Shown: positions 4,327 through 62,241 of the stretch, in pieces
How positions within the stretch are numbered: position 1 is the stretch's first letter
How the letters are laid out: the number at the start of each line of letters is the position of its first letter
IMG/VR virus record: IMGVR_UViG_3300042384_001501
Location: 1-64,000 of that record
Strand: one strand, 5' to 3'
From: a virus
Length of the DNA stretch: 64,000 nt
Made by a program: the position numbers and the translations under genes
Notes under the pieces: model-generated
Databases searched by the model: none
What the model was told of the DNA's origin: nothing
Seen by the model: the letters and a program-made list of their open reading frames with translations, nothing else

Positions 4327-4423
4327 AAGATATATTTATATATAAATTAAACATATTATGAAAAAGGTTTTAAGATTAACAGAATCAGATTTGATTAAAC
4401 TTGTTAAGAGGATTGTTAAAGAA
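4321..4423 (+). repeat. Promoter-plus-tag cassette, copy 1
   Basis: From ATTTTTAAGATATA to the end of the tag this segment aligns without gaps to 4681-4783 (offset 360). It covers the late-type promoter, leader, ATG and the class A tag. Confidence 0.75.
4333..4339 (+). promoter_or_regulatory. Phage late-type promoter motif TATTTAT
   Basis: AAGATATATTTATATATAA, 18 bases before the ATG at 4358. Confidence 0.5.
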
Positions 4424-4606
4424 GACGTTTCTTCAACTCCTACTACAACACAAAAAACCATTTCTTTGGATTGTGCAAGAAAAACTGCTGACAATATTGC
4501 GTTAACTACCCAACAGGTTAATAAATGGTGTCCTAAAGTAATTGTTAAACCATCACCACAACCAACACAAAGTAACCCAACACAACAGTTAGGAACTGCT
4601 ATTTAA
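4358..4606 (+). CDS. Tagged protein, class A tag (82 aa)
   Basis: The protein opens MKKVLRLTESDLIKLVKR followed by IVKE|D, the class A tag with its [ILV]-x-E exit near residue 22. The remaining 60 residues are Thr/Pro/Gln-rich around a short helix (LDCARKTADNIALTTQQVNKWC). If the tag is a capsid-targeting propeptide, the mature protein would be a small packaged peptide. Its promoter and tag are duplicated 360 bases downstream before an unrelated protein body. Confidence 0.8.
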   Translation: MKKVLRLTESDLIKLVKRIVKEDVSSTPTTTQKTISLDCARKTADNIALTTQQVNKWCPKVIVKPSPQPTQSNPTQQLGTAI

Positions 4607-4622
4607 ACTAATTTTTTGTAGT

Positions 4623-4688
4623 ATGAAAAAATTCATTATAACAGAAGAAGAGAAAAATAGAATTCTAGTGAGGGGTTTTTATTTTTAA
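4623..4688 (+). pseudogene. Stranded class B tag remnant (21 codons)
   Basis: ATG at 4623 encodes MKKFIITEEEKNRIL and then runs into VRGFYF and a stop at 4686-4688. The first 15 residues are a perfect class B tag like those at 8459 and 12107, but the cargo is missing; the frame dies at the point where the duplicated promoter-tag cassette (4681) begins. It looks like the stump of a tagged gene replaced by recombination, though a real micropeptide cannot be excluded. Confidence 0.55.
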
Positions 4689-4783
4689 GATATATTAATA
4701 TATAAATTAAACATATTATGAAAAAAATTGTAAGATTAACAGAATCCGATTTGATAAGACTTGTTAAAAAAGTTATCAAAGAA
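4681..4783 (+). repeat. Promoter-plus-tag cassette, copy 2
   Basis: Second copy of 4321-4423. The leader before the ATG is nearly identical (TATTAAT replaces TATTTAT) and the class A tag codons are largely conserved; similarity ends at the tag boundary. Confidence 0.75.
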
Positions 4784-5071
4784 CAAGAATTTGAAGATGA
4801 TGAATTTGACATGGGTATGAATTCTGATTGTGATAGAATTATTGATGAAATGGAATACATTTTTCAAGATTTTATGAGATATTACAAAAACTCATCACCT
4901 GATACGAAATCTATCTTAGGAGCTTCGGAGATGTACCACGACTTAGAATCAGAACTTGGTGGTCTTCTTGATATGGCTGAAGAAAATGATTGTGAAAATC
5001 GTTACGATATTGAATCAACGTATGAGGAACTTTTAGATATGTTTCGTCGACATACCGAACTTGATTTATAA
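4718..5071 (+). CDS. Tagged protein, class A tag (117 aa), acidic
   Basis: It opens MKKIVRLTESDLIRLVKK then VIKE|Q at about residue 22, the most typical class A tag in the window. The body is acidic and helical (EFEDDEFDMGMNSDCDRIID, then repeated Glu-rich helices). No enzyme motif is visible. A clear intrinsic terminator follows at 5095. It is interpreted as a packaged protein of unknown role. Confidence 0.8.
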   Translation: MKKIVRLTESDLIRLVKKVIKEQEFEDDEFDMGMNSDCDRIIDEMEYIFQDFMRYYKNSSPDTKSILGASEMYHDLESELGGLLDMAEENDCENRYDIESTYEELLDMFRRHTELDL

Positions 5072-5094
5072 ATTTAAAATTACAAGAATATTTA

Positions 5095-5127
5095 AAACCC
5101 CATTCCTAATAAGAGTGGGGTTTTTTT
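5095..5127 (+). terminator. Intrinsic terminator
   Basis: CCCCATTC/GAGTGGGG stem followed by a T7 run. Confidence 0.85.
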
Positions 5128-5129
5128 AT

Positions 5130-5137
5130 TATCTTTG
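5130..5137 (+). promoter_or_regulatory. Host-type promoter TATCTTTG
   Basis: TATCTTTG directly after the terminator and 8 bases before the ATG at 5146. Confidence 0.7.
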
Positions 5138-5145
5138 TATCTCAT

Positions 5146-5427: not shown

Positions 5428-5471
5428 AAATTTTTTTCTCCGTTGTTTCAATCCCCCCACCCCCTTTTTTG
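5425..5471 (+). repeat. Repeated intergenic element, copy 3
   Basis: T-run, CTCCGTTGTTTCAAT, C-rich run, T-run; closest to copy 1 at 1803. Confidence 0.6.
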
Positions 5472-5502: not shown

Positions 5503-6354
5503 ATGAATAAAGTTGTTAGATTAACTGAATCAGATTTGGTTAAAATAGTTAAAAGAGTTATTAAAGAAGAAAACAATCCTAATACATTAGTTTCAACAGA
5601 AGGGGATAAAGTGAAAAATTATTACCTACAACATTTTTCAAAACCTGAAACCATTGATAAGTTTAAAAATAAAAATAATATTGATAAAATAAAAAAATAT
5701 ATCCCAACAATAAAGTATATTTTATACTCAGAAAACAGTGGCGTCGGCGGATTTGTTAACCAAAATAAACCTGGAATTATAAATTTGAACACTAATAATC
5801 TAATTCGTGACATTAAGGGATTTGTAACGTCTAAAGGGACTTACTTGTATGATACAATTCTGCATGAAATGGGTCACTTGATTGATTTCAAATTACAGGA
5901 ATTGGGTGAAAATACAATTGCAAAATCATCAGGGTATTATAAACCAACTGGAGGTAAAGATGATTATGTTTTCTCAGACGTAGAGACTTATGCGAGAGTT
6001 CAAAGATTAAGAGAGACTTTGGGACTTAATCCAAACGCTAATGGAGAAGAAATTAAAAAGAAATTAATTGAGTTTATCAAACTTAAAAAATTAACTTTTC
6101 CAAATGTTAAGATACAAGATGTTAAATCACCTACTACAGGGTTATTATTTACACCAACACAAACATCCAAAGGTGAGTTATCTGACCTTTGGAAATTTTA
6201 TTCTCCAATTAGAATTAATAATACAACTGTTCCTGATATTAGTGCGTTATTCGCTAAGTTCTCATCTTATCGAAATGGTGGCTTAGTATTTCTTAATCTT
6301 GACGTAATCGGTAGAGTGAATATTACAACTAAAGGATTACCCGATACAAAGTAA
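5503..6354 (+). CDS. Tagged zinc metallopeptidase (HExxH), 283 aa
   Basis: The class A tag MNKVVRLTESDLVKIVKR ends in VIKE|E near residue 22. The body carries LYDTILHEMGHLIDFKLQEL, a gluzincin-type HExxH at residues 121-125 with zinc ligands His121 and His125 and catalytic Glu122, and a likely third ligand in FSDVETYARV about 35 residues later. The family hydrolyses peptide bonds. A tagged protease fits an ejected effector acting on host proteins, or a virion-internal protease. The substrate is unknown. Confidence 0.8.
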   Translation: MNKVVRLTESDLVKIVKRVIKEENNPNTLVSTEGDKVKNYYLQHFSKPETIDKFKNKNNIDKIKKYIPTIKYILYSENSGVGGFVNQNKPGIINLNTNNLIRDIKGFVTSKGTYLYDTILHEMGHLIDFKLQELGENTIAKSSGYYKPTGGKDDYVFSDVETYARVQRLRETLGLNPNANGEEIKKKLIEFIKLKKLTFPNVKIQDVKSPTTGLLFTPTQTSKGELSDLWKFYSPIRINNTTVPDISALFAKFSSYRNGGLVFLNLDVIGRVNITTKGLPDTK

Positions 6355-6414: not shown

Positions 6415-6753
6415 ATGGGAAATATTCAAGATTATAAACAAAGATTTTTTAATTTGATGGAATCAACAATAGGGGACGTTAAGCCTCTAATAAATGAAGA
6501 CGAATCTACAACTAATAAATTCTGTTGGGAAAATCCTGAATGGAAAGAAATTGATGACGATGTTAAATTCAAAGGTACATGGAAACTTCAGGGTAACAAA
6601 GTGTTATTAACATATGAACGTTCAATTATGTCTCTTAGTAATACTGAAGTAATAATTAAACCAAATGGATTTGATACGTGGAGAGGTAATGTAACTTCAG
6701 GTAAAATTGAAAAATCATATTCGGGGGACTACACAATTTGTTTCTTTAAATAA
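6415..6753 (+). CDS. Tagged small beta-rich protein (112 aa)
   Basis: The N-terminus MGNIQDYKQRFFNLMEST leads to IGDVKPLINE|D at about residue 29. The piece [IL]GD[VA]KPLI[NS]E is shared with the gene at 8459 (LGDAKPLISE|Q). The body WKEIDDDVKFKGTWKLQGNK and following looks like a small beta barrel (lipocalin-like, low confidence). It is 21 bases upstream of the tagged gene at 6775, so the two are probably co-transcribed. Confidence 0.75.
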   Translation: MGNIQDYKQRFFNLMESTIGDVKPLINEDESTTNKFCWENPEWKEIDDDVKFKGTWKLQGNKVLLTYERSIMSLSNTEVIIKPNGFDTWRGNVTSGKIEKSYSGDYTICFFK

Positions 6754-6774: not shown

Positions 6775-7851
6775 ATGAAAAAATTATTATTTGTTACTGA
6801 AAACGAAAGGCAAACAATTTTAGAAATGCATGGGTTCATTAATAACCCAAATGTTATTAATGAGGAATATACCGAATTAGAAAAAATATTTAAAAACCCG
6901 TATGCCGAATTAGAAAAAATATTTATAAACCCTTTTGTTAAAGGTTTGGAAAAATCAAACCCAAAGGCGTTTGATGAATTAAGTAAAATTTTAGATAGAA
7001 GAGCCGATGAAACATTATCAGGAGCTTTTGATAGGGTCTTATCAAAAGCGGTTGATAATGGAAGTAGAGCAGATGGAGTTAATGCGCTTAAATTTTGTAA
7101 ACAATTAAGTTTAATTAATGACCAATTTGCTGAAGAATTTTATAAAAATCAAATTGAAGTAATTAATAAAATTAGATTACATCCTGAATATTCCAAACAA
7201 TGGGAACTAATGGTTAAAAATAATTTTGGTGAAAAAGTTCTTGAGAAATATAAAAAAAATAATATGGGTTCAGTTAAACCTGTTGAAAAAACCCCAACTG
7301 AGCCTAAACCATCTGAGAAACCTGCCGAACAAAAACCAACCCCACCTAAACCTGCGGAACAAGTAAAACCTCAAACGGGAATATCAATAGGAAATTTCAC
7401 AGTTAGGCCACTAAATGACGGTTCAAAACTTGCCAAATTTATGGACGCATTTTTTGAAAAAGTTTTTTACGAAGGAAATAATAAATTTATGAACGGATTT
7501 CCAAAAGAAGTTATAAAACAATTTACACCTGAAACAAAAAGTTACTTATTACAATTATTAGATATTGTTAAACGAAAAAACCTTACAAGTGGTCTTGAAC
7601 AGGGTTTTAAGTCCGATTATGGTCGTTTACCTAAAACTGTTGATGAGGAAATTGAGATGTTATCGAACAATTTTTGGGGTGGAAAGTCACAGTTTGGAGG
7701 TCGTAGACAAGGGGGAATACAAGGAATGTTAGGCGAAGCACCCATTCCGACAGAGAATGTTTTGGACAACCTTACGAATACTACGATGTCACCGAGTCAA
7801 AAAAAAGAACTTATGGAATACGGTCACAAAATTGAGGTGTTTAAAAAATAA
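6775..7851 (+). CDS. Tagged protein, class B tag (358 aa), paralogue of 23677
   Basis: It opens MKKLLFVTENERQTILEMHG with NVINE|E at about 27-31. Roughly the first 160 residues match the protein at 23677 (shared FDELS, FCKQLS/FCRKLS, NDQFA and GEKVLEK blocks), a helical domain. A Pro/Lys/Glu-rich linker (EKTPTEPKPSEKPAEQKPTP) separates it from a different C-terminal domain. A short duplication near the tag repeats AELEKIF. Probably a packaged multi-domain protein; function unknown. Confidence 0.8.
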   Translation: MKKLLFVTENERQTILEMHGFINNPNVINEEYTELEKIFKNPYAELEKIFINPFVKGLEKSNPKAFDELSKILDRRADETLSGAFDRVLSKAVDNGSRADGVNALKFCKQLSLINDQFAEEFYKNQIEVINKIRLHPEYSKQWELMVKNNFGEKVLEKYKKNNMGSVKPVEKTPTEPKPSEKPAEQKPTPPKPAEQVKPQTGISIGNFTVRPLNDGSKLAKFMDAFFEKVFYEGNNKFMNGFPKEVIKQFTPETKSYLLQLLDIVKRKNLTSGLEQGFKSDYGRLPKTVDEEIEMLSNNFWGGKSQFGGRRQGGIQGMLGEAPIPTENVLDNLTNTTMSPSQKKELMEYGHKIEVFKK

Positions 7852-8458: not shown

Positions 8459-8890
8459 ATGAAACATCTTTTAAATAACATTTCTGAAGAAGAAAAAAAC
8501 AGAATCCGTGAACAACACACAGGAGGTAAAAAAATCGTAATTGAAAACTTTAATAAATTGTTGAATAGCAAGTTGGGTGATGCTAAACCATTGATTAGTG
8601 AGCAAAAAACTGAAGACCCAACTAAAGACATGTATAGTGTTTTAATTGGTTATTTAGTTAAACTTTCAGAAGATGGAGGTAAAAAAGGAATCCAAGGATT
8701 GGATGACATGGCGGCAATCAAAGAAACGAGAATGTATTTTGAAGCGTTGAGGGATGGAAAAACCCCAAAACCTTTGAGTAAACCTGCTGAAATTGTTAAA
8801 AATTATGCAATGGCCGAAACAAGAAAAATGCAAGGTCAAGAATTAGTTGCTTTAAAACAGTATGGTGAGAACGTTAAAACTAAACTTTAA
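8459..8890 (+). CDS. Tagged protein, class B tag (143 aa)
   Basis: It opens MKHLLNNISEEEKNRIREQH, a clear class B tag, and continues to KLGDAKPLISE|Q near residue 49, the second shared exit motif (compare 6415). The body is helical and Lys-rich (DMAAIKETRMYFEALRDGKT). No enzyme motif is seen. Its stop overlaps the next start (TAATG), indicating translational coupling with 8890. Confidence 0.8.
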   Translation: MKHLLNNISEEEKNRIREQHTGGKKIVIENFNKLLNSKLGDAKPLISEQKTEDPTKDMYSVLIGYLVKLSEDGGKKGIQGLDDMAAIKETRMYFEALRDGKTPKPLSKPAEIVKNYAMAETRKMQGQELVALKQYGENVKTKL

Positions 8891-11684: not shown

Positions 11685-12110
11685 ATGAAAATTTCTTTAC
11701 ACGAAAACATTGAAAGAATTAAGTCATTATTAAATGTTAATGAACAAGCTGGCTCCGCACCTTGTAAACAACCCAATCAGATAAAAACAACTTCAGGTGA
11801 GACCGAACTCATGGGATATATTTTAGATGTTCTTGATGATAACAATATAAATTTAAAAAATTGTAAAGATAGAAAATGTATTGATGATAAAATGTTGGCT
11901 GAAAAAATCATAAGTGAGTTACTTAACTCTTTAGTTGATAAAAGAGATTTGGGTACTGAGTTAAGTTCTGAGAACAAAAGAAATTTTGACTACTACACTA
12001 AAATAATGAGAGGGATATTTCCAACGTATAATAAAGCTCACTACAATAGAGGCACATGCGCCATGAAATCAAAAGTTAGTAAAACAACTACAACAACATA
12101 TTATAAATGA
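11685..12110 (+). CDS. Tagged protein (141 aa), HENIERIKSLLNVNE variant tag
   Basis: The N-terminus MKISLHENIERIKSLLNVNE|Q is a variant tag closing in V-N-E; its ERIKSLL core resembles ILNRIKLL in 21803 and IERVKKLLNE in 43141. The body contains paired cysteines (NCKDRKC) and a helical segment but no recognised domain. It overlaps the cell-wall hydrolase gene at 12107 by four bases (ATGA), so the two are coupled and may work together. Confidence 0.75.
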   Translation: MKISLHENIERIKSLLNVNEQAGSAPCKQPNQIKTTSGETELMGYILDVLDDNNINLKNCKDRKCIDDKMLAEKIISELLNSLVDKRDLGTELSSENKRNFDYYTKIMRGIFPTYNKAHYNRGTCAMKSKVSKTTTTTYYK

Positions 12111-13219
12111 TTATGAAAACAAATTTATTTGAAATTAGTCAAGACGAAAAAAACAGAATTTTAAACCTTCATGAAGGTCACACAAAAAATCATTATTTAA
12201 ATTTAATTAATGAAGAATCAACGTACAACCCTAAGTCAGAAGCAATTCAAAAAAAATTAAGTGAATTAGGTTACGGTAAAATTGTTGGAAGTCCTGATGG
12301 TAAATACGGACAAAAAACAGCTTGTGCAGTTGCTAAATTCCAAGAGGACAACAATTTAATCGTTGATGGTAAGGTTGGTAAAATAACTGCTACAAAACTT
12401 GGGGTTGATGCTTATTTTCCTAAAGGTGTTAGTATTATTTCTTGTGGTACCAAAAATACTGACAATAAACAAAAAGTTACTGATGACTCAGGTAAACAAA
12501 ATTGTCAGTCAGTTTTACCTGAAACATGTTCAAAAATTAGTCCAAATAAGGAAACTACTATTGGTAATGGTGGAAGTGAGGGTTGTTCACAATATGTTGG
12601 ACTGTCTATAGGTGAAAAATTAGGTGATGCTTGGAAAGCCTTTAACGCGGCTAAAAAATACGGAGTTAAATATAATATGTTTACAGACGGCTCAATTGAT
12701 TGGAATAATGTTAGGAACAAAATGAAATCCAATAAAATAAATTCATCAACTTGTGATTGTTTTACTGAGGAAGGTGAAAGTAAAGATAAATCTTGTAGTT
12801 CAGGTTCTGAGATTGCCAAAACTATTAGTTCATTTTATCCGTCATCGTCTAATTTCAGTAATGGTTCGTTGAAAGTAGGTGATATAGTTGGTATGTACTA
12901 CAGAGATTCAGGTAACAAAGGTAAAGCTTTTTGTGAAAGAGCTTCACAAAGAGGATTAGATAGTAGTGGTAATGTTAAAGATACTGACCCATTTACATTT
13001 AATACCCACGTTGGATATGTTGGAGCGATTAAAAATGGTGTACCGATAATTTATCATAGTGTACACGGAACAAGATTAGCGACACCGGCAAACCAATTAA
13101 AAAGTAAAAATGGTAGTGCGATGATTGTTTGGGTAACAGGCGGACCTAAATCTGCTGAACAAGATTCTACAAAACCAAAAGATGTATCTTGGTATGAAAA
13201 AATATCAGATTGGTTTTAA
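12107..13219 (+). CDS. Tagged cell-wall hydrolase: PG-binding domain plus NlpC/P60-like domain
   Basis: A class B tag (FEISQDEKNRILNLHEGH) exits at NLINE|E near residue 36. Residues about 40-100 form a PG_binding_1 domain (SEAIQKKLSELGYGK, PDGKYGQKTACAVAKFQ). The C-terminal domain has a likely catalytic Cys in SEGCSQYV (about 160) and His in FNTHVGYVGAI, followed by IIYHSVHG, resembling NlpC/P60 or CHAP cysteine peptidases that cut peptidoglycan stem peptides. A second in-frame ATG at 12113 is an alternative start. A tagged wall hydrolase fits entry through the peptidoglycan. Confidence 0.75.
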   Translation: MIMKTNLFEISQDEKNRILNLHEGHTKNHYLNLINEESTYNPKSEAIQKKLSELGYGKIVGSPDGKYGQKTACAVAKFQEDNNLIVDGKVGKITATKLGVDAYFPKGVSIISCGTKNTDNKQKVTDDSGKQNCQSVLPETCSKISPNKETTIGNGGSEGCSQYVGLSIGEKLGDAWKAFNAAKKYGVKYNMFTDGSIDWNNVRNKMKSNKINSSTCDCFTEEGESKDKSCSSGSEIAKTISSFYPSSSNFSNGSLKVGDIVGMYYRDSGNKGKAFCERASQRGLDSSGNVKDTDPFTFNTHVGYVGAIKNGVPIIYHSVHGTRLATPANQLKSKNGSAMIVWVTGGPKSAEQDSTKPKDVSWYEKISDWF

Positions 13220-13271: not shown

Positions 13272-13670
13272 ATGAAAAAAATTGTTAGATTAACAGAATC
13301 AGATATCGTTAGATTAGTTAAGAAAGTAATCAACGAAAACACTCGAATGGCAATAAATGAAGGGGCTGTAAATGCTGCTGGAGGTACATTCGAATTTAAT
13401 GGAAACGAACCTTACGTTAAAGTAAATGGTAGAAAATTCAAAACTACGATTGACTCTTTAGTCTACAAAGGACCTGTAAATATTTCTAGAGTCCAAGAAA
13501 AGGCAGGTTCACTTTATGGAAAAAATGTTTGTGTTGCTGATAGTAAAAATCAAGAAATGTGTTTTGATATTTCAAAGGCGCAAGACTTAGTTAATCAAGT
13601 AAACCAAGGAAAACAATGGATAGAAATGGGTAATTCGGCTGGTAAAGTAATTTTCCAAGCTTGGCAATAA
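13272..13670 (+). CDS. Tagged protein, class A tag (132 aa)
   Basis: It opens MKKIVRLTESDIVRLVKK then VINE|N near residue 22, a standard class A tag. The body is beta-rich (GGTFEFNGNEPYVKVNGRKF) with two cysteines (NVCVADSKNQEMCFD) and a C-terminal helix. No known family. The gene stands alone between a late-type promoter and a strong terminator, so it is a monocistronic tagged unit. Confidence 0.8.
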   Translation: MKKIVRLTESDIVRLVKKVINENTRMAINEGAVNAAGGTFEFNGNEPYVKVNGRKFKTTIDSLVYKGPVNISRVQEKAGSLYGKNVCVADSKNQEMCFDISKAQDLVNQVNQGKQWIEMGNSAGKVIFQAWQ

Positions 13671-14233: not shown

Positions 14234-14590
14234 ATGAAAAAAATACGTTTAACTGAAACAGAATTAACATCTTTAATTCGAAATATTGTTATTGAAACTC
14301 AAAATGAAGAGATGAACGAAGAAATGGAAAATTACTTCAACCCTGAAGCTATGGAGACAGGTGAGGCGATTGTTACCATTATTGGGACTGTAATCGGAAT
14401 GTTAGGAATTGCAGGTTCTCACTACATTAAAGCAGCAATCAAAAAATTAAGAAAATCAGGTAACGATGCTGAAGCTGATAAAGTGGAAGAGGCATTACAG
14501 GCTGAAATGAGTAAAATGAAAAGTCGTGAGATGAGTTCTGGTGAAGATGAACCAGTAATGGAAAGTCGTATTGTAAGAAGAAGAAAATAA
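14234..14590 (+). CDS. Tagged membrane-active protein (118 aa), class A variant
   Basis: The tag MKKIRLTETELTSLIRNIVI ends E|T near residue 21. It is followed by a hydrophobic stretch (AIVTIIGTVIGMLGIAGSHY) long enough to span a membrane, then an amphipathic Lys/Glu helix and a basic end (RIVRRRK). A packaged protein with one membrane segment could insert in the host inner membrane during DNA entry; this is inference. A terminator follows at 14606. Confidence 0.75.
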   Translation: MKKIRLTETELTSLIRNIVIETQNEEMNEEMENYFNPEAMETGEAIVTIIGTVIGMLGIAGSHYIKAAIKKLRKSGNDAEADKVEEALQAEMSKMKSREMSSGEDEPVMESRIVRRRK

Positions 14591-50643: not shown

Positions 50644-50814
50644 TTTTGATTGTAGGTAAATAGCCTTTCTTTTTTCCTCTCTTTTAGTTGTACTTTTCTT
50701 AGCAAAATACTTTCTTTTAGTTAATTCTTTAACTTGTTTAACTTTGATAACTTTACTTTTAAGTTCTTTCAAAGCCTTTTCAATGTTTTGATTTTTTACT
50801 TTTACAATTAGCAT
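50626..50814 (-). CDS. rpsU: Ribosomal protein bS21
   Basis: The 62-residue product MLIVKVKNQNIEKALKELKS continues KVIKVKQVKELTKRKYFAKK and STTKREEKRKAIY, the complete layout of bS21: an initial V-K-V strand, A-L-K-x-x-K helix, R-K-x-F/Y-x-K-K-S/P-T-x-K-R and a basic tail. bS21 binds near the 3' end of 16S rRNA on the small subunit. No Shine-Dalgarno sequence precedes its ATG. It is the only minus-strand gene in the head cassette and converges on 49927. Confidence 0.88.
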   Translation of the reverse strand: MLIVKVKNQNIEKALKELKSKVIKVKQVKELTKRKYFAKKSTTKREEKRKAIYLQSKLENQM

Positions 50815-52398: not shown

Positions 52399-54015
52399 AT
52401 GCAAAAAATGGCAGAAAATAAAAACTTAGTTGAAGAAGCGGTAATCCAATTAAAAAATTTGGAAGAAGCTATCAATGAAAACGCAAAAGAAATACTTGAG
52501 TCAACAATGAAGCAAGAAATTAGCGAGCTTGTAAAGGAGTCTTTAAAAGAGGCTGAAGAAGAAGAGGAAACTGAAGATTTTGAAGAAGAATCTGATGAAT
52601 CGGAAGAAGAAGAATCTGATGAATTTGAAATGGAAGACGAAGAAGGTTCTGAAGAAGAATTTGATGAGTTTGAAATGGATGATGAAGAAGAGTCTGACGA
52701 AGAAGGTTTTGAAGATGAAATGGGACAGGATGATGAAGTAATTGATTTTACACAAATGCCTGATTCTGATGAAACTCAAGATTTGTTATTAACAGTTTTC
52801 AAAAAAATGAAACCAGAAGATGAAGTCGAAATCCAAAAAGACGGGGAGTATGCACATTTGAAAGACGGTGACGATGAGTACCTTATTCCAATGAACGAAT
52901 CTCGTGAGGATGATGACGATGACAATGACGACGAAGAATTTGAGTCAGAGTTAGAAGAAACTATCTATGAAATTTCTATGGACGACGAAACAGGTGAAAT
53001 GGAAGAACAATGGCAAGGTTTGGCCGCTGATATGGCAATTGCCGCAGCACCAGTTATTGCTGACAAAATGTTTGGAGACGATGAAGAAGAAGAATTAGAA
53101 GAAACTATTTACGAACTTCACATGGATGGTGAAGATGGTGAAGATGATGATGAACTTCCTTCTCCTCCAAAAGAAGAAAGACCTGGTGGGATGTTTTATG
53201 AAAGAGACATGGATGTTGAGTATGAAGAAGATGAAGATGATGATATGGAAGACGGATACGAAGAATTTCCAATGGATGATTTAGAAGAAATGGATTATCA
53301 ATCTGAAGAATATACAGAAGAAATGATGCATGAGACTACTAAACCAAAAGTTGGTAAGGGTGGTAAAATCGGAAAACCTAAATTTTCATACAAGAAAACT
53401 ACTGGTGGTTTTAAAGAAAAAATGACAGCCGCTAATCCTACAAAAGGTACAGGTAAACCAAAGTTTGAATACAAAGAATCAACTAAAAAAATGAAGAAAG
53501 GTGAATTTAAAGAAGCTTCTCGTACATTAGGTTCAGGTTCAAAATTTAGAAAAGGTGGTCTACCGAAACCAGCCGCTCATTCGGCATTCAATATTAATAT
53601 TGAAGAACACTATTCTTTGATGGAAGAAGTAGAAATGTTGAGAGCTAAAAATGAAGAGTACAGAAAAGCTTTGAATATTTTCAGAGACAAACTTAACGAA
53701 GTTGCTGTATTCAATTCAAATTTAGCGTACACTACAAGATTATTTACTGAACACACAACATCAAAGCAAGAAAAAATAAATGTTTTAAGAAGATTTGATT
53801 CTGTAGAAACACTTAAAGAATCTAAAAATCTATATAAAACTATTAAGGACGAACTTTCATCAACTACTAAAGGAAAAATCACTGAGTCAATCGAAAAAGT
53901 AATGGACAACGAACCAGTAATTACAGGTTCTGCTCAAAACTTAATTGAATCTAAGACTTACGAAAATCCTCAGTTTATGAGAATGAAGGACTTAATGACA
54001 AAAATAATAAAATAA
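52399..54015 (+). CDS. Prohead core scaffold protein (T4 gp22-like)
   Basis: The 538-residue protein is helical and extremely acidic in residues about 50-290 (long runs of Glu/Asp with EFEMDDEEE-type repeats), then has a basic Gly/Lys/Thr linker (KVGKGGKIGKPKFSYKKTTG) and a helical C-terminus (AYTTRLFTEHTTSKQEKINV, LRRFDSVETLKES). Size, acidity and position directly before the capsid gene match the main scaffold gp22. Several [ILV]-x-E triplets (NLVE, EILE) would allow degradation by the protease. ATG at 52408 is an alternative start. Confidence 0.8.
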   Translation: MQKMAENKNLVEEAVIQLKNLEEAINENAKEILESTMKQEISELVKESLKEAEEEEETEDFEEESDESEEEESDEFEMEDEEGSEEEFDEFEMDDEEESDEEGFEDEMGQDDEVIDFTQMPDSDETQDLLLTVFKKMKPEDEVEIQKDGEYAHLKDGDDEYLIPMNESREDDDDDNDDEEFESELEETIYEISMDDETGEMEEQWQGLAADMAIAAAPVIADKMFGDDEEEELEETIYELHMDGEDGEDDDELPSPPKEERPGGMFYERDMDVEYEEDEDDDMEDGYEEFPMDDLEEMDYQSEEYTEEMMHETTKPKVGKGGKIGKPKFSYKKTTGGFKEKMTAANPTKGTGKPKFEYKESTKKMKKGEFKEASRTLGSGSKFRKGGLPKPAAHSAFNINIEEHYSLMEEVEMLRAKNEEYRKALNIFRDKLNEVAVFNSNLAYTTRLFTEHTTSKQEKINVLRRFDSVETLKESKNLYKTIKDELSSTTKGKITESIEKVMDNEPVITGSAQNLIESKTYENPQFMRMKDLMTKIIK

Positions 54016-54041: not shown

Positions 54042-55835
54042 ATGGGAGCATTATTAGAATCAGGTCTTGTTGGTAACATCGGTCTTAAGCACCTTAAAGT
54101 TATCAAAGAAGATACTATTAACAAATGGGACAAATTAGGGTTCCTTGAAGGTCTTCGTGGCCACCTAAAAGAAAACGTAGCACAATTATATGAGAACCAA
54201 GCTTCTCACTTAATCAACGAAGCTACTTCAGACGGAAATTCAGGTTCATTTGAAACTGTTGTTTTCCCGATTATCAGACGTGTATTCTCTAAATTATTAG
54301 CGAATGAAATCGTTTCTGTACAAGCGATGAACTTACCAATCGGTAAATTGTTCTTCTTTGTACCAAAAATCCAAGGTTACACTGGTACAACTCAGTTAAC
54401 TAATGATACTACATCTCCATGGGCTCACAGAGCACCTGTAGGAGCACCTGGTAACTATCCTGGTGACCCAAATGCAGGTTATAATGATGCTGCAGCTTTC
54501 ACTAAGAATCTTTATGATTTGTATTATGAAGGTAATGAGGCGGCTTTAGACCCACCTGGATTGTATGATTACTCAAAAGGACGTTGGTCAGCGACTACTG
54601 CGGCGACTTTCACTCAAGTATGGACAGGACAAAGATTAGTACAATCAGGTTATCCAAGTACTACTTACAGAAAAGTAATCGTTTCTTTATCTGGTTTCAG
54701 TACTTCAGGTGAAGGTAGATTAGTTGGTCCTGAAGGTAACCAAATGGATACTGAGGATTTCTTAGCAAGTTTACGTTTAGTTTCTTCAGCAAATACACAA
54801 AACCCATTATTGTTCAGAGTTGTTACTCAAGTATACGGTCAAGGTATTGTTAACTACGGTTCACAATCACAAGCTGCTTGGCCAACTCAAGGTAACGGTG
54901 GTTACTACAATAACATTTGTAGTGCATCTGGTGTTATCTACTTAGAAGTTGATTTAAGTGTACCTTGTTCTGTAACTGATAACAGTTTAGATGGTTATTC
55001 AGGTTCTACATTCGCAGCTGACACAGCCACTGGTTCTATCATTGCGGTTTATAAAATCTATGAAGAACTTGAGTTTGAAGACGCTATCGGTGAAGTTTCT
55101 TTTGAATTAGATTCAGTAACTGTTACTGTAACTGAAAGAAAGTTAAGAGCTCAGTGGTCTCCTGAATTGGCTCAAGACGTTGCGGCATTCCACAACATCG
55201 ATGCTGAGGCTGAATTAACAGCTTTATTATCTGAACAAGTTGCGGCTGAAATCGACCGTGAAATCTTACGTGACTTACGTAAAGGTGCAGCTTGGCAATT
55301 ACGTTGGGATTACAACGGATGGAAGAGAGGAACTGCAGCTAACCCATTAACTCAGTACACTCAAAAAGACTGGAACCAAACATTGATTACTGCAATCAAC
55401 CAATTGTCAGCACAAATCCACAAGTCAACACTTCGTGGTGGAGCTAACTGGATTGTTGTATCTTCTGAGGTTTCTGCAATCTTCGATGACTTAGAATACT
55501 TCCACGTATCTAACGCTTCTCCTGAGCAAGACCAATACAACATGGGTATTGAGAGAGTTGGTACTTTAGCTGGTCGTTACCAAGTATACCGTGACCCTTA
55601 CTTCCCGCCAAACCAAGTTTTGATTGGACACAAGGGTACTTCATTACTTGACACTGGTTACGTTTACGCACCATATGTACCTCTACAATTAACTCCAACT
55701 ATGTACAATCCATTCAACTTCACACCTATCAAAGGTATCATGACACGTTACGCTAAGAAGATGGTTAACAACCGTTTCTACGGACGTATCACAGTTGACG
55801 GTGTACGTACATTTGACTTGAGAGAGTTAAGATAA
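54042..55835 (+). CDS. Major capsid protein (T4 gp23-like)
   Basis: The 597-residue protein has gp23 features: an N-terminal propeptide ending SHLINE|ATSDG (Glu60-Ala61, compare the gp23 cut after Glu65), then FETVVFPIIRRVFSKLLANE, VQAMNLPIGKLFFFVPKIQG, and late RDLRKGAAWQLRWDYNGWKR and YFHVSNASPEQ, DPYFPPNQVLIGHKGTS blocks. GC and codon choice are visibly higher and more even than its neighbours, as expected for the most expressed gene. It is followed by a strong terminator. Confidence 0.95.
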   Translation: MGALLESGLVGNIGLKHLKVIKEDTINKWDKLGFLEGLRGHLKENVAQLYENQASHLINEATSDGNSGSFETVVFPIIRRVFSKLLANEIVSVQAMNLPIGKLFFFVPKIQGYTGTTQLTNDTTSPWAHRAPVGAPGNYPGDPNAGYNDAAAFTKNLYDLYYEGNEAALDPPGLYDYSKGRWSATTAATFTQVWTGQRLVQSGYPSTTYRKVIVSLSGFSTSGEGRLVGPEGNQMDTEDFLASLRLVSSANTQNPLLFRVVTQVYGQGIVNYGSQSQAAWPTQGNGGYYNNICSASGVIYLEVDLSVPCSVTDNSLDGYSGSTFAADTATGSIIAVYKIYEELEFEDAIGEVSFELDSVTVTVTERKLRAQWSPELAQDVAAFHNIDAEAELTALLSEQVAAEIDREILRDLRKGAAWQLRWDYNGWKRGTAANPLTQYTQKDWNQTLITAINQLSAQIHKSTLRGGANWIVVSSEVSAIFDDLEYFHVSNASPEQDQYNMGIERVGTLAGRYQVYRDPYFPPNQVLIGHKGTSLLDTGYVYAPYVPLQLTPTMYNPFNFTPIKGIMTRYAKKMVNNRFYGRITVDGVRTFDLRELR

Positions 55836-56139: not shown

Positions 56140-56907
56140 TTAAGATAAACTATTCATTATATTTTCAATCTTAGATGCACTTCCAGAAACTGCACTATTT
56201 CTTCTTGACTGAACCGCAACTTTTTTAAGTTCAGATACTGACGTATTACCTTTTTCCACCTCTTCATTAATTGCGTTTGCAAATTTTTGAAAAAATCCTG
56301 AGCCATTCCAAGAAGCGTATATAAAGTGGAATAATAACGCGTTACTTTTCATAACAATATTTTTAGCCTCAGGAGATAAGTATTTATCAGCAAGTTTATT
56401 AAAATGAGGTTCCATTATTTTAACCACCAGGTCTATTAGTTTTTGTTCTAAATTACCACCTCTATAATAACGTTTCCAAACTCTTCTATTTTTATTCCCA
56501 TCAATCAAATTCCAAAATTCAACACCGGCATTGCTTGTATTTAATGTTCCTCCGTGTTTCCTATCAATTCCAAACATAGTTTCACCTGAGTCACCCATTC
56601 CTGAAGATTTATGCCATTGTGGGTTAAAATATCCACCTTCTAATTTATTAATAACTAATTCAGTCATTTTTTTAAAATCTCCTGATATTGTACCAAATGA
56701 ATTGTCTGAACCATTATTGGTAGATGTGTCAGATGTATTAGAAGAATCTTTATCATCTTTGTTAATTAATTTACCCCCAATTCTTTTTTTCACCCTATCA
56801 AGCATTGCTTGTATGAACGAATCACCAACAATATTACTATCATTTTGTTCAGTGATATTATAATTTACAATTTTTTTTAATTGTTCTTCAGTAACTTTAA
56901 TTTTCAT
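56140..56907 (-). CDS. Tagged lysozyme-like muramidase (GH108-like), 255 aa
   Basis: The N-terminus MKIKVTEEQLKKIVNYNITE|Q is a class A-like tag with an I-T-E exit at residue 20. After a Ser/Asn/Asp linker the C-terminal domain has INKLEGGYFNPQWHKSSGMG and DSGETMFGIDR, resembling GH108 muramidases (EGGY, G-G-x-T-x-x-G-I), with the Glu of LEGGY as likely acid catalyst. It would cleave glycan strands of peptidoglycan. It overlaps 56904 by four bases, so wall-degrading functions are paired. Confidence 0.75.
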   Translation of the reverse strand: MKIKVTEEQLKKIVNYNITEQNDSNIVGDSFIQAMLDRVKKRIGGKLINKDDKDSSNTSDTSTNNGSDNSFGTISGDFKKMTELVINKLEGGYFNPQWHKSSGMGDSGETMFGIDRKHGGTLNTSNAGVEFWNLIDGNKNRRVWKRYYRGGNLEQKLIDLVVKIMEPHFNKLADKYLSPEAKNIVMKSNALLFHFIYASWNGSGFFQKFANAINEEVEKGNTSVSELKKVAVQSRRNSAVSGSASKIENIMNSLS

Positions 56908-58487
56908 ATCTTATCTCCAAATTTTTCATAGAAATATTTAAGGATTGCAAAATTCATATGAGCGTACCCTTTAGTACAGAATACGTGTCCTGAATAAGAA
57001 CCTTTATCTTTATTTGAACAGTACCATTCTAATCTTTTTCTTGTTTGTCCATAAAATCCAGTAGTTCCCCAATTTTTTGGGTCACAAACCAAATAAGTAT
57101 TTGGTCCAAAAGATATTCCTGTTTCGTATGTTGATGGGTCAATTAAACCGACTAATTTTAAACTACTATCTTGAGCATAATTCCATGTTTCTCGTCCACC
57201 TTGTGAAAATCCTGCAATAGATGATACCACTCCACCAAATTTTTCTTTTACGTATTTTTTAACGTTGTTTAAATTATTAAAATGGTGAGTAATTACAATT
57301 ATTTTATTATTACTGTAAGGTCTCAAATAAGGTATGTATTTTTCCATTGCGGAACGATTTGCGGTACCCTTTGAGTATCCTGAAGTATGAGCTCCCCCAA
57401 AAAATACGTGTACTTGATTACCTTTATATGAATCAGATTTAATAATCACATATTCATTATCTCCTGTCACTTCTGAATTAGTTTCTGATGGTTTTGTTTG
57501 AACTTTTTTAGGGTCTTGAAGTCTCTCCAAAGTTTTTTTATCTACTGATGATGATACAGTTAATGATTGGTCTTCTTGAAAAGTTTCTAATGCCTTTTTA
57601 GTTTTAGGACCAAATAAACCATCAACTCCACACTTACCTAAGTCATAGTTCAAACGGTTCAAGATGTTCTGAATTTCGGTAACTGGTGACCCCATATGAC
57701 CAATTCTCATTACAACATCCCCTTTTTTAATTTGTTCTAACGTTGGGGACTCTGAATATGACTTTGTTGGTTGACAACCAGACTTCTTAAATTGTTTTAC
57801 GGTTTCTTTTTCAAGTTTAGGGTCTACTTTATCACTTTTATAATAATCATCAATTTTAGAATTCGGTATAACTTCTGTTTTACCCCCACTATTTAAAGAC
57901 TCTCCCCCGACATAAAATAAATGCCAAGGTTCTGCTTTACGCAGTACACCATCTCTTAAATAAGATACTTTAAAACCAAATTTTCCACAATTATTTTCAA
58001 CCCATTTTTTAACATCTGAATTCTGATTCCACCAAGACGGTTCAACACTTATTATATCAAATGCCTTTCCTGTATGATGTTGAGAAAATCCGGGTAACGC
58101 AGAATACTTTTGTCTTTGTGACACACCACCATCCCTTTTTATTTTACCACCAAATGTATCGACTTGTTTGGAATAACTTCTATATGATGAGACCACGGTA
58201 GCTTTAGATGACACCTCAGGAAATTCTTTTTTTAATGATGATAACAATTTTGATATTTGGATTTTTGCCTTTGAAACCTCCCCACCATTGTCTTCATAGT
58301 ACTGACCTTCTTGTTTCATCTCATCATCCACATGTTTATCATTAATTGTAGTATTGTACTTTGATTCAACACTTGATAAAGATGATTTAATATCAGAAGG
58401 TAAATCTCTATTAACTTTTTCAGTTAATAAACCATATTTTTTTAAAATATCATTTTTTTCAGATTCAGAAATAATTAACTTTCCCAT
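56904..58487 (-). CDS. Tagged three-domain wall enzyme: M15 VanY-like peptidase, PG-binding, alpha/beta hydrolase (527 aa)
   Basis: MGKLIISESEKNDILKKYGL then LTE|K gives a class B tag (exit at 23). Residues 98-195 are a D-Ala-D-Ala carboxypeptidase domain: VVSSYRSYSKQ, GFSQHHTGKAFD (His138, Asp144) and AEPWHLFYV (Glu186, His189). Residues about 265-325 are PG_binding_1 (GVDGLFGPKTKKALETFQED). Residues 345-527 look like an alpha/beta hydrolase with AGFSQGGRE (Ser429), Asp near 450 and His510. The combination of peptidase and esterase in one packaged protein is unusual. Confidence 0.8.
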   Translation of the reverse strand: MGKLIISESEKNDILKKYGLLTEKVNRDLPSDIKSSLSSVESKYNTTINDKHVDDEMKQEGQYYEDNGGEVSKAKIQISKLLSSLKKEFPEVSSKATVVSSYRSYSKQVDTFGGKIKRDGGVSQRQKYSALPGFSQHHTGKAFDIISVEPSWWNQNSDVKKWVENNCGKFGFKVSYLRDGVLRKAEPWHLFYVGGESLNSGGKTEVIPNSKIDDYYKSDKVDPKLEKETVKQFKKSGCQPTKSYSESPTLEQIKKGDVVMRIGHMGSPVTEIQNILNRLNYDLGKCGVDGLFGPKTKKALETFQEDQSLTVSSSVDKKTLERLQDPKKVQTKPSETNSEVTGDNEYVIIKSDSYKGNQVHVFFGGAHTSGYSKGTANRSAMEKYIPYLRPYSNNKIIVITHHFNNLNNVKKYVKEKFGGVVSSIAGFSQGGRETWNYAQDSSLKLVGLIDPSTYETGISFGPNTYLVCDPKNWGTTGFYGQTRKRLEWYCSNKDKGSYSGHVFCTKGYAHMNFAILKYFYEKFGDKI

Positions 58488-58741: not shown

Positions 58742-60043
58742 ATGAAAGAAACCCATTTAATAAAAAAAATAAGGGAGATAATAAAAGAAACCAACTCAAG
58801 TTCAGCAGCAGGATTTTATAACGTACCAATGAGACCCGGATTAAGATTGTGGAAGAAAAAAGAAATGGGTGCGTTTACTGAAAAACTTAATGGGTACGAT
58901 AACGCAGAATTATATGTTGACGCGTTAGATGGAAATATTGACACTAAAAATGCAAAGGAAAAAGAGAGAATCTCAAGAAAAATATCTAAATATTATGATA
59001 AACACCCAACTCAAAACGATGATGATGGTAATGTTTTAAATGATGTCAATATTAAAGAAGCAACATATAATGATGGAGGTGAATATAGCGCACCATTAAG
59101 TTTTGAGCCAATTAAATGGGATAAACATACTATGGCACCATATGTATATCATTCCACTCATGACCATAATGAAAAAGGTAAATTAGGTAACATTGGTGGT
59201 AAAGTATCATTCAAACATGGATATATGGAAAAACCACACCCAAAAAAAGGTAAGTCAAAAAAAATAATAACACCTAAAGAAAATAAAGATGTAGTTAATG
59301 AGGATTTAGCAGTTTGGTTTGGTAAAAAAAAGAAACCAAAAGGTAGTAAACAACCTAAAGGTCCTTGGGTTAATATTTGTAAAAAAGTAGATGGTAAACA
59401 TCCACCTTGCGGAAGACCTCAGGCAACTGATAGAGCTTACCCAAAATGTAGAGCTGCGGGCGTTGCTGGGAAAATGTCAGATTCAGAAAAAAGAAACGCG
59501 TGTCAACAAAAAAGAAGAGCAGAAAAAACTCATTCAAAATCAGGTACAGGTAATAAACCTAAAATGGTTTCTCATAAAACAAATGAAAATATGTCAAAAA
59601 AAATTAAAATTACAGAATCACAATTAAAGAACTTGGTTTATTATCTTAATGAACAAAATACATTACCAATAACTTTATCATGTATAGAACCTGATAACCC
59701 AAGTTCTCCAGGAATACAATTTAAAAATTTAAAATTTGTGAATAAAGGTACACAAACTTTAAATGATAAAGAAGAGACAATTTATGTTTTTGAGAAGACT
59801 AGTCTTGAACCTTATAAACAAGAATCCGTACAACAAAAATTTACAACAGTAAAAATTGAAAACCCTGAGTTGGTTAAAGTTTTAGAACAACGAGGATATA
59901 AGAACGTATCAAATTTTAGTTTTTTAAAAACCTACCATCTAAATAGAAAGTTTTATTGTGGAGTCTTCTTCACAAAAGATAACGATAATTCAGATAATTT
60001 TGCAAAAACAAATGATATTGTTTCATTAAAACCAACAAAGTAA
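58742..60043 (+). CDS. Fused tagged protein with an internal second tag (433 aa)
   Basis: MKETHLIKKIREIIKE|TNSSS is an N-terminal tag with an I-K-E exit. Residues about 195-275 (KGPWVNICKKVDGKHPPCGR, YPKCRAAGVAGKMSDSEKRN, then a basic KRRAEK stretch) are a phage domain of the DUF5872-like group. At residue 284 (59591) a second Met starts MSKKIKITESQLKNLVYYLN then E|Q, a complete class A tag, followed by a separate beta-rich domain. It looks like two tagged genes joined in frame. Confidence 0.75.
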   Translation: MKETHLIKKIREIIKETNSSSAAGFYNVPMRPGLRLWKKKEMGAFTEKLNGYDNAELYVDALDGNIDTKNAKEKERISRKISKYYDKHPTQNDDDGNVLNDVNIKEATYNDGGEYSAPLSFEPIKWDKHTMAPYVYHSTHDHNEKGKLGNIGGKVSFKHGYMEKPHPKKGKSKKIITPKENKDVVNEDLAVWFGKKKKPKGSKQPKGPWVNICKKVDGKHPPCGRPQATDRAYPKCRAAGVAGKMSDSEKRNACQQKRRAEKTHSKSGTGNKPKMVSHKTNENMSKKIKITESQLKNLVYYLNEQNTLPITLSCIEPDNPSSPGIQFKNLKFVNKGTQTLNDKEETIYVFEKTSLEPYKQESVQQKFTTVKIENPELVKVLEQRGYKNVSNFSFLKTYHLNRKFYCGVFFTKDNDNSDNFAKTNDIVSLKPTK

Positions 60044-60300: not shown

Positions 60301-60304
60301 ACTT

Positions 60305-60311
60305 ATAAATA
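60305..60311 (-). promoter_or_regulatory. Phage late-type promoter motif (minus strand)
   Basis: Minus-strand TATTTAT, 4 bases upstream of the lipoprotein start. Confidence 0.5.
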
Positions 60312-60358
60312 TTTAATTTTATATTGTAAAGTTACTTAAAAATTTTGATTATTCAAAA

Positions 60359-60365
60359 TATTTAT
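60359..60365 (+). promoter_or_regulatory. Phage late-type promoter motif TATTTAT
   Basis: CAAAATATTTATTAAAAAAATG, 7 bases before the ATG at 60373. Confidence 0.5.
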
Positions 60366-60372
60366 TAAAAAA

Positions 60373-60765
60373 ATGAAAGTTTGTTTAAAATACCCAAAAA
60401 ACACTTTAACTAGTAAGGAACTAAAAGTACTTGGTAAATTTATTCAGTTATTACAAAAAATAATGCCACTTTCAAACAAGATAAAAATTGTCTTTTTAGA
60501 TGAGAGAGTTGGTAAAATGACAACAGGTTCTTATAAAAAGAGTAAACACATTATTAAAGTCTTAATTAAAAATAGGTTACTTGCCGATTTGTTAAGAACG
60601 TTATCCCATGAATGGGGGCACGCTTTTGATAACGAACATATTAATTTTGAAGATAGGAGAGAAGTTGGGGGAGAATCTGAAAATTTTGCAAATGCAATAT
60701 CAGGAGCTGTAACCAAACACTTCATCAAAAAAAATCCTCAAGTTGAGGATATTATTTTTGAGTAA
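60373..60765 (+). CDS. Zinc metallopeptidase-like protein (HExxH), 130 aa
   Basis: The motif LSHEWGHAFDNEHI gives HExxH at residues 79-83, followed by GGESENFANAISGA with Glu101 as likely third ligand, the layout of small gluzincin or M78-like phage domains. It is short and lacks a tag or signal peptide. The protein may be a structural peptidase domain or a minimal protease. It converges on 60766. Confidence 0.75.
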   Translation: MKVCLKYPKNTLTSKELKVLGKFIQLLQKIMPLSNKIKIVFLDERVGKMTTGSYKKSKHIIKVLIKNRLLADLLRTLSHEWGHAFDNEHINFEDRREVGGESENFANAISGAVTKHFIKKNPQVEDIIFE

Positions 60766-61164
60766 TTAATTACAAATTTTAGAATAGATAGTTTCTAAAG
60801 AATGTTTGATTTGTACATCTAAATCTTTTTCCATCTGTAAAGCCCTTTCTTCCATCTCTTTTTTGAAAAAGTCTTTTAATTTTGACCAATCAATATCAGG
60901 TAGTTTAATAAAATAACTATAAGTATGGTTAGTAATTGTTACCTCACCATCTTCCATAGTAATAAAAATACCATATTGCTCGTTTTTAATGTATTTTTTA
61001 CGAGAAATCGGGGCAATTAACAACTCAGAATTAGGATTGTGAATCAATCTTCTACAAATTGCGGTACATTGATTTATACGTGTCCTTTGAAGTTTTCTAA
61101 GTTCACTTTCATTGATACTTCTAACAAAAATTTTGTAACGGGCAATTAATCTTTTTAGTGACAT
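60766..61164 (-). CDS. Hypothetical protein (132 aa)
   Basis: It starts MSLKRLIARYKIFVRSINES with basic helices (LRKLQRTRINQCTAICRRLI), a beta middle (EQYGIFITMEDGEVTITNHT) and a helical end. No tag or membrane segment. It abuts the convergent metallopeptidase. No TATTTAT lies directly upstream. Function unknown. Confidence 0.7.
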   Translation of the reverse strand: MSLKRLIARYKIFVRSINESELRKLQRTRINQCTAICRRLIHNPNSELLIAPISRKKYIKNEQYGIFITMEDGEVTITNHTYSYFIKLPDIDWSKLKDFFKKEMEERALQMEKDLDVQIKHSLETIYSKICN

Positions 61165-61208
61165 TTTTTATTTATTTATGTCTACAAAGATATTGCAAAA
61201 ATTTTAAT

Positions 61209-61733
61209 TTAACAATAAGGTGATGAACATTTTTTCTTACCATCTAAACCTGGCATTCTTCCTTTACAAACCTGAACTGCGTATCCGTTAGCGTATGCAC
61301 TAGGGTAAACTTTAAACTTTGATTTTGCTGCGGATTTACCACGAGAACAAAGTTTTGTTCCTGACTTTTTACGACCTTCATTCATTTGATATAACGCCAA
61401 GGCTTCATCAGGGTTTTCATTATCCATCGCCATTGACATATCGTCTAAAACATTGTCATTTTCCATCATATCACCATCATCTACATTCATAGACAATTCC
61501 ATACCATCTTTTTTTGTTTCATTCATTAGAAAGTCAAATACTTGGTCCATATTGTTTTTTGCCTCAGCAATATGGTCTTGAGCCCAATCATGTCCATTAG
61601 ATAGAATCTCCTCAACCATATTACGGTCTAAATCTAACAATAAACCACATTGTCTTCTCATTTGTTCTAAATTACTGAAAAACATATATCTTTCAGATTC
61701 TTCTTTTAAAATTTTTTTAATTAATTTTTCCAT
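61209..61733 (-). CDS. Tagged conserved phage protein with basic Cys C-terminus (174 aa)
   Basis: The start MEKLIKKILKE|ESERYMFFS is a short tag with an L-K-E exit near 11. A helical acidic middle follows, and the end (KKSGTKLCSRGKSAAKSKFK, VYPSAYANGYAVQVCKGRMP, GLDGKKKCSSPYC) is a phage module I recognise by its KLCxRGKxAAKxKFxVYPSAYANxYA pattern. The module occurs in many virion-associated phage proteins; its role is unknown. It follows 61735 by one base. Confidence 0.75.
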   Translation of the reverse strand: MEKLIKKILKEESERYMFFSNLEQMRRQCGLLLDLDRNMVEEILSNGHDWAQDHIAEAKNNMDQVFDFLMNETKKDGMELSMNVDDGDMMENDNVLDDMSMAMDNENPDEALALYQMNEGRKKSGTKLCSRGKSAAKSKFKVYPSAYANGYAVQVCKGRMPGLDGKKKCSSPYC

Positions 61734-61734
61734 A

Positions 61735-62241
61735 TTATCCTTTTAATTCTTCTTTTAATTGGTCACAAATTATAGAAAGAAAAGATTCTATTTCTCTTTC
61801 TAAACCCTCATATTTTTCAAACAAATTTTCACCATCATTAGATTCAAAATTACAAACTGAATATTCACCATCAGAAGTACAATAAATCTCACCATAATAT
61901 TCATCACCACTAATTGTAAAATAACCTGAATGAATAATTTCATCTAAATTTTGTTCAGTTACCTCATACTTAAATGACATTGACGGAATTCCGGGAGATT
62001 CGTCAAATCTCCAAGTTTCACCACTTTTAACCAATTCTTTTGAAGTTGTTAATTCTTCATCGTCTAAAAACTCATTATTTAATGAATAGTGGTCAAGATA
62101 TTTTTTTTCTTTATCGGTTAAAGATTTCATACCTGATGAATTAATTTTGTCAAGTATTGCGTCAATTTCTCCCATCCCCTCAGATAAAAATGTATCTATT
62201 ATAAATTTTAATTGAGATTCTTTAAGTATTAATTTTCTCAT
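61735..62241 (-). CDS. Tagged acidic protein (168 aa)
   Basis: MRKLILKESQLKFIIDTFLS then E|G is a class A-like tag with an L-S-E exit near residue 21. The body is acidic and beta-rich (GYFTISGDEYYGEIYCTSDG). It overlaps the structural gene 62238 by four bases and leads into 61209, so three minus genes form an operon driven from 63749. Confidence 0.75.
   Translation of the reverse strand: MRKLILKESQLKFIIDTFLSEGMGEIDAILDKINSSGMKSLTDKEKKYLDHYSLNNEFLDDEELTTSKELVKSGETWRFDESPGIPSMSFKYEVTEQNLDEIIHSGYFTISGDEYYGEIYCTSDGEYSVCNFESNDGENLFEKYEGLEREIESFLSIICDQLKEELKG

Follow-up and report, generated by a model that had tools for sequence, protein, structure and literature searches.

Several internal proteins of phage T4 (IPI, IPII, IPIII and Alt), which differ in their bodies, share a short N-terminal propeptide, the capsid-targeting sequence (CTS), which is cut by the prohead protease gp21 after L/I-x-E (PMC9026906, PMC3012670). 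The internal proteins diverge while the CTS stays (PMC9026906, PMC3012670), and cuts in T4 head proteins fall after the same motif (PMC9026906). IMG/VR record IMGVR_UViG_3300042384_001501 is a linear sequence of 84,404 bases from a lake phage whose putative hosts are Bacteroidota-type bacteria. In its first 64 kb (the whole stretch analysed here, called the window), about 25 open reading frames (ORFs) begin with a peptide, or tag, that closes with a hydrophobic residue, any residue and Glu (hydrophobic-x-Glu). These tags are very probably capsid-targeting propeptides that would be cut after the closing motif, a case that is read from sequence alone. The system is best read as one acting like the CTS of T4, its sequences being specific to the lineage and its scale far larger.

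Tag sequences and their junction with the body

A first-pass annotation had claimed about 25 tagged N-termini. All its coordinates were translated, which confirmed the claim, and matches to hidden Markov models (HMMs) of the tags were found far above chance. Among 2352 N-termini, drawn from loci chosen for a tag or gp21 and often carried by contigs that are fragments, the class A HMM matches 220; it matches none of the 1720 N-termini used as controls and two of the 1098 internal segments (Fisher 4e-55). The class B HMM matches 58 of the same 2352 N-termini, one of the controls and no internal segment (Fisher 5e-13). In the window's own record, strict HMMs give five class A and seven class B matches. 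Together, tags A and B head 237 proteins that fall into 172 single-linkage body families, mutually unrelated. Over all classes, the tags measure 7–48 residues, and AlphaFold2 (AF2) models the tag as a low-confidence helix set apart from the folded body.

Class A was searched in IMG/VR as a DNA pattern for MKK-hydrophobic2-RLTES-D-[LF], residues 13–22 being left unfixed. This pattern matched at least 119 IMG/VR stretches and only two stretches across bacterial and archaeal genomes totalling 257 Gb. At least 143 distinct instances of the 22-residue tag are found in IMG/VR, and in 143 of these the unfixed residues are mostly conserved (Arg14 3.1 bits, Val16 3.5, Arg18 3.5, Glu22 3.3). The tag has a sharp end at this Glu: residue 23 retains 1.2 bits, and from residue 24 onwards conservation is below 0.4 bits. 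Its invariant residues use many synonymous codons (TTA 80, CTT 25, CTA 20 and TTG 3 for Leu7; five codons for Ser10), so that selection acts on the peptide and not on a DNA or RNA element. One of the two matches in the genome collections is a 113-kb contig (L204) of a Prevotella metagenome-assembled genome in which no Gp23 was found; it may be a phage contig binned into that genome. A longer variant, MKKIIRLTESDLHRIVKESVNKILKE, occurs in L044, L048, L050, L072, L078 and L087, including a 412-kb record, a group that looks like a distinct lineage.

As raw positional counts of hydrophobic-x-Glu give only a modest enrichment near the N-terminus, the case rests on the tag HMMs and on the tests of the junction. 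All 42 parsed class B tags close with [LIVMFY]-x-E, for 34% expected. In four ortholog families whose tags vary in length and sequence, [LIVFMY]-x-E is kept at the border between tag and body in 69 of 70 members, the homologs being related and not independent samples (22/22 for the family of ORF 58742, 22/22 for 61209, 11/11 for 61735 and 14/15 for 43141). The untagged neighbour family 60766 gives 2 of 23 in this comparison. In the 61209 family, a single body bears either tags of 11–15 residues (MEKLIKKILKE, MRNIDNIIRKVIKE) or full class A tags (MKKVIRLTESDLTRLVKRVLSE), which indicates that tag types are interchangeable. The short tags resemble the second half of class A as well as MAKINELLRE of T4 gp24.

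The same kind of site is predicted in the capsid protein of the window (ORF 54042), where HLINE/A (a slash marks the predicted cut point here and below) falls after residue 60 (54221/54222). Among the clade capsid proteins listed with their N-terminus, ENQAS-x-LINE/[AST] lies near residue 60, and gut forms have HLIYE/A or HLLYE/A. This pattern, L-[IL]-[NY]-E/[AST], sits where T4 gp23, whose propeptide has 65 residues, has ENQ...FLTE/A.

The open literature that was searched, subscription papers lying outside the search, holds no mention of the string RLTESDL and, by title or abstract, no article on capsid-targeting sequences of Bacteroidota phages. A tblastn search of the 23-residue tag against named phage records gave no match, though the low-complexity filter may have masked the tag; for named phages, the negative is based on HMM searches of seven records.

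Head module, protease linkage and tagged bodies

The enzyme proposed for processing is encoded in a T4-type head module:

44742–46490, plus strand: putative terminase large subunit, T4-like late module (translated sequence and gene order)
48098–49912, plus strand: putative gp20-like portal (translated sequence and gene order)
50626–50814, minus strand: ribosomal protein bS21, within the head module and opposite to its neighbours (PF01165 match)
51353–52072, plus strand: prohead protease of the T4 gp21 type, proposed to carry out the processing (39% identity to annotated P-SSM2 gp21)
52399–54015, plus strand: gp22-like acidic scaffold, putative docking partner of the tags (composition; position between gp21 and gp23)
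54042–55835, plus strand: gp23-type major capsid protein (T4 gp23 E 2.5e-26; PF07068 at 9e-65)

Co-occurrence of tags with such a protease had been set beforehand as a check, and it was found. PF03420 (gp21 Peptidase_S77) is present in 32 of 49 tag records, each of at least 59 kb, versus 4 of 45 control records (Fisher 1e-8); all 16 tag records that reach 187 kb have it. Of the 17 tag records devoid of PF03420, none has a Gp23 match above the cut-off (G001 has one weak partial match), so those fragments lack the head module. Every tested tagged record with a gp23 head gene also carries a gp21-type (S77) protease. Within the control set, the sole tagged record (G075) is protease-positive, and class B gives the same outcome. 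A 268,739-base record (G039) has two Peptidase_S77 matches, at 31291–31773 and 233494–233940, and holds either a second prohead-type protease or two joined phages.

If tagged proteins share a compartment with a protease that cuts at [LI]-x-E, their mature parts are expected to avoid this motif, and this provides a test independent of the tag sequence itself. The ratio of observed to expected [LI]-x-E is 0.845 in the mature bodies of 183 tagged families (95% confidence interval 0.74–0.96); the 607 untagged families of these loci stand at 1.072 and controls at 1.138. When untagged families were sampled 5000 times with matched lengths, no sample came as low as the tagged ones. Within the tagged bodies, related motifs are not depleted (1.21 for [LI]xD, 1.23 for [LI]xK and 1.21 for the reversed Ex[LI]). 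The capsid-targeting reading proposed by the first-pass annotation is thus supported by gp21 co-occurrence, by the invariant junction and by this depletion, all of them properties of sequences.

Counted from residue 31, tagged bodies have a median length of 116 residues, versus 158 for untagged ones. Among 80 distinct tagged bodies, the few Pfam matches are NUDIX, VanY, PG_binding_1, UPF0227 esterase, phage lysozyme and OmpA; with Pfam, PADLOC and PHROGs together, few bodies could be annotated and no clear anti-defence class emerged. The AF2 model of the 58742 family is of low confidence and mostly disordered (predicted local distance difference test 49), and its body includes a strikingly conserved Lys/Cys-rich stretch, WFGTKKKPKGSKQPKGPWVNICRK...KCRAAGVAGKMSDSQKKAACQQKRRAEK (residues 187–279 of the window ORF). 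Apart from that stretch, this head-region protein is probably disordered. A Foldseek search with the 61735 model gave no significant match.

Flavobacterium phage immuto and Rhodothermus phage RM378 are among the closest named relatives of the window phage by capsid protein. In the passages of PMC9723584 that deal with freshwater phages predicted on Bacteroidetes, a reverse-strand bS21 gene within the terminase, portal, protease and capsid block is a mark of these phages. As the bS21 gene of the window is equally on the reverse strand inside the structural block, its phage likely belongs to the same group.

Tagged genes of the window

The tags and related sites of the window are as follows:

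4358–4423, plus: class A tag MKKVLRLTESDLIKLVKRIVKE/ (ORF 4358–4606)
4623–4667, plus: remnant class B tag, 21-codon ORF MKKFIITEEEKNRILVRGFYF ending at a stop, decayed gene
4718–4783, plus: class A tag MKKIVRLTESDLIRLVKKVIKE/ (ORF 4718–5071)
5503–5568, plus: class A tag (ORF 5503–6354)
6415–6498, plus: tag ending KPLINE/ (FFNLMESTIGDVKPLINE), resembling the second half of the 8459 tag (ORF 6415–6753)
6775–6864, plus: class B tag ...RQTILEMHGFINNPNVINE/ (ORF 6775–7851)
8459–8602, plus: long class B' tag ...KPLISE/ (ORF 8459–8890; tag type also in L073, L084, L094, L110 and L119)
11685–11744, plus: variant tag ...LLNVNE/ (ORF 11685–12110)
12107–12214, plus: class B tag ...YLNLINE/ (ORF 12107–13219, PG_binding_1 domain)
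13272–13337, plus: class A tag ...KKVINE/ (ORF 13272–13670)
14234–14296, plus: class A tag MKKIRLTETELTSLIRNIVIE/ (ORF 14234–14590)
16332–16352, plus: mini-tag of 7 residues, MKKLLTE/, heading a DHH-type phosphoesterase (weak Pfam match); homologs start MRKILKE or MKKILKE
18141–18230, plus: class B tag ...KRKLFE/ (ORF 18141–18503)
21803–21889, plus: variant tag ...ELMIE/ (ORF 21803–23653)
23677–23766, plus: class B tag ...NVINE/ (ORF 23677–24714)
25284–25334, minus: variant tag MSTLILSESQRRLLIIE/ (ORF 24711–25334; homolog in L103 ...LLVE/S)
26731–26784, plus: class B-like helix, no clear closing site (ITE inside the helix), doubtful member
28053–28118, plus: variant tag ...EKLTE/ (ORF 28053–28349)
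28346–28393, plus: short tag MKNTDLKKIVRKVLLE/ (ORF 28346–29914, PG_binding_1)
40769–40879, plus: [IV]NE/ site at residue 37, kept in 11 of 12 homologs (ORF 40769–41974)
42353–42466, plus: variant tag ...LMTESEISKLFKTFLIE/ (ORF 42353–43144)
43141–43191, plus: short tag MNNKKILIERVKKLLNE/AP (ORF 43141–44676; tags of 6–45 residues across homologs)
56848–56907, minus: class A-like tag MKIKVTEEQLKKIVNYNITE/ (ORF 56140–56907)
58419–58487, minus: class B tag ...YGLLTE/ (ORF 56904–58487, VanY D,D-carboxypeptidase and PG_binding_1)
58742–58789, plus: short tag MKETHLIKKIREIIKE/ (ORF 58742–60043)
59591–59653, plus: second, internal in-frame tag MSKKIKITESQLKNLVYYLNE/ (residues 284–304 of ORF 58742–60043)
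61701–61733, minus: short tag MEKLIKKILKE/ (ORF 61209–61733; some orthologs with a full class A tag)
62179–62241, minus: class A-like tag MRKLILKESQLKFIIDTFLSE/ (ORF 61735–62241)

This list departs in part from the first-pass annotation. Its class A members at 4358, 4718, 5503, 13272, 14234 and the internal 59591 stand, and 56140 and 61735 become looser relatives of the class. In class B, 6775, 8459, 12107, 18141, 23677, 56904 and the remnant at 4623 are retained; 26731 lacks a convincing closing site and is also the exception to the near-universal hydrophobic-x-Glu closing, which holds for the members in the window. The positions 24711, 56140, 56904, 61209 and 61735 of that annotation mark where minus-strand genes end (their low, 3' coordinate) and not where they start; their tags start at 25334, 56907, 58487, 61733 and 62241, respectively. 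Four tags or sites were absent from that earlier list: 6415, the mini-tag at 16332, 40769 (INE/VNE at residue 37) and the LINE/A site of capsid protein 54042. One candidate, ORF 3897 (KLIE/A), was rejected, its homologs carrying KLID or RLIN. By eye, no tags were seen in the last ~20 kb of the record, which hold tail genes and apparent sugar-biosynthesis genes.

ORF 58742 looks like two tagged proteins fused in frame. It would encode a cargo polyprotein if the protease cut at the second tag; alternatively, the ATG at 59591 could allow separate translation. The bodies of 6775–7851 and 23677–24714 are paralogous and carry similar class B tags in the same genome, a pattern read as cargo duplication. 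The body encoded at 20956–21534 has no tag in the window; in L121, L103 and L014 its homologs have a short one (e.g. MVILENLIKKVLKE), a case, judging by these sequences, of a tag gained or lost on one body.

Proposed mechanism, alternatives and comparison with known systems

From these observations we infer scaffold binding, cleavage, presence in virions and ejection, which can be arranged in the following model. In a T4-type prohead, the N-terminal amphipathic helix would dock the tagged protein on the core made of the gp22-like scaffold. Protease 51353, of the gp21 type, would then cut after the closing [LIVFM]-x-Glu and free the mature cargo inside the head. The mature cargo would remain with the packaged DNA and would probably be ejected into the next host cell. 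We lean slightly towards a broader proposal, in which the T4-type head serves an entire lineage of large Bacteroidota phages as an all-purpose vehicle for protein delivery, interchangeable tags loading dozens of rapidly exchanging cargo proteins, including two-tag fusions separable by the protease. Such cargo would comprise wall enzymes, NUDIX proteins, esterases and many proteins without assignment, probably host-takeover or counter-defence factors.

Several observations weigh against capsid targeting or its delivery role. The association of tags with gp21 could in part be explained by shared ancestry within one lineage. Among seven named or clade records, the tag HMMs find no match in T4, P-SSM2 or immuto, and four gp21-positive clade fragments have no class A match at E<=0.01, some of them carrying diverged tags. 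The tagged bodies are not basic, unlike the T4 internal proteins, and cargo with peptidoglycan-binding or VanY domains would need a periplasmic site of action.

The tags could also be processed in the prohead for assembly only, the tagged proteins being core or scaffold parts (like T4 gp67/gp68 and IPIII) rather than an ejected arsenal. Some tagged families (43141, 58742, 61209 and 61735) are indeed conserved beside head and tail genes, and for these an assembly-limited role is possible; as an account of the whole system it is unlikely, as 172 body families and enzymatic domains (NUDIX, VanY, esterase) fit accessory cargo better. Amphipathic basic helices can serve other kinds of sorting, and packaging is read from sequence, so that the tags might be signals unrelated to the capsid (for a membrane, a replication compartment or a host factor) whose ending in a hydrophobic-x-Glu helix would be incidental. 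This is improbable given the invariant Glu junction on variable tags, the recurrence of this motif in the capsid protein, the depletion of [LI]-x-E and the linkage to gp21. Tags are swapped between genes and the phage encodes bS21, as would suit shared 5' ends acting as DNA or RNA elements (a hot spot at which recombination shuffles genes, or an enhancer of translation by bS21-modified ribosomes), but the synonymous codons vary at invariant residues and tags of very different sequence share only the peptide junction, which makes this explanation highly improbable. Chance or low-complexity N-termini can practically be set aside: hydrophobic-x-Glu alone is common (about 34% of 22-residue stretches), but the HMM matches (220/2352 versus 0/1720 control N-termini), the two contigs in 257 Gb of bacterial genomes and the junction counts in ortholog families speak against it.

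If capsid targeting is true, the N-terminus alone would reveal the injected proteome of uncultured phages, and a tag search would name hundreds of proteins annotated without function as virion cargo likely acting in the first minutes of infection. Such cargo would be a first place to look for host-takeover and anti-defence factors, and virions of related large phages may hold an unusually large protein load. From the few internal proteins of T4, capsid targeting would widen into a loading code used across a lineage, which would also offer new short targeting peptides for enzyme packaging. The question of what large phages inject could be tested directly in culture, with T4-like Flavobacterium phages such as immuto.

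T4 shares with the window, besides the type of propeptide, the gp20-21-22-23 head module. However, the tags have no recognisable sequence relation to the CTS (T4 gives no match to HMMs A1 and A3), and they are therefore described as working like it and not as its homologs. The window also differs in having several tag classes, with tags on about 25 genes within 84 kb and on 172 families in relatives, whereas T4 has a handful, and in bodies that lack the basic character of T4 internal proteins. The propeptides of T4 gp24 and gp23 (MAKINELLRE/S and ...FLTE/A) resemble the short tags and the LINE/A site, but belong to shell proteins and not to cargo. In phage P1, an N-terminal stretch of DarB, of which 30 residues suffice, sends cargo and a reporter to the capsid (PMC9024508); P1 is another type of phage, and the stretch belongs to one giant protein instead of being shared by many. 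In SPN3US and phiKZ, a gp245-type prohead protease removes N-terminal propeptides and the internal protein load exceeds 40 MDa (PMC10052503), but there are nine substrates, with propeptides mostly of 111–254 residues and no shared tag, and 42 head proteins are uncleaved (PMC10052503). The passages of PMC9723584 on the bS21-encoding phages do not mention N-terminal tags and only speculate on bS21 encapsidation.

Immuto (MW353175) is a cultured T4-like relative with gp21 and gp23 (41% identity). Its apparent tags are of other classes, without HMM match to A or B, but, seen by eye, many of its ORFs start with short peptides ending in hydrophobic-x-Glu (e.g. MKKSQLRQIIKE/ and MENFDLKKFLVENKLT..LKE/), and a tag-like MKKVMGNLADLLLE/ heads a 5'-nucleotidase. 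Further apparent tags, MENFDLKKFLVENKLTxNSxxLxE/ and MKKQILSEQFRRMQKLAGIITE/, lie in the region 95000–144900 of the immuto record (L326).

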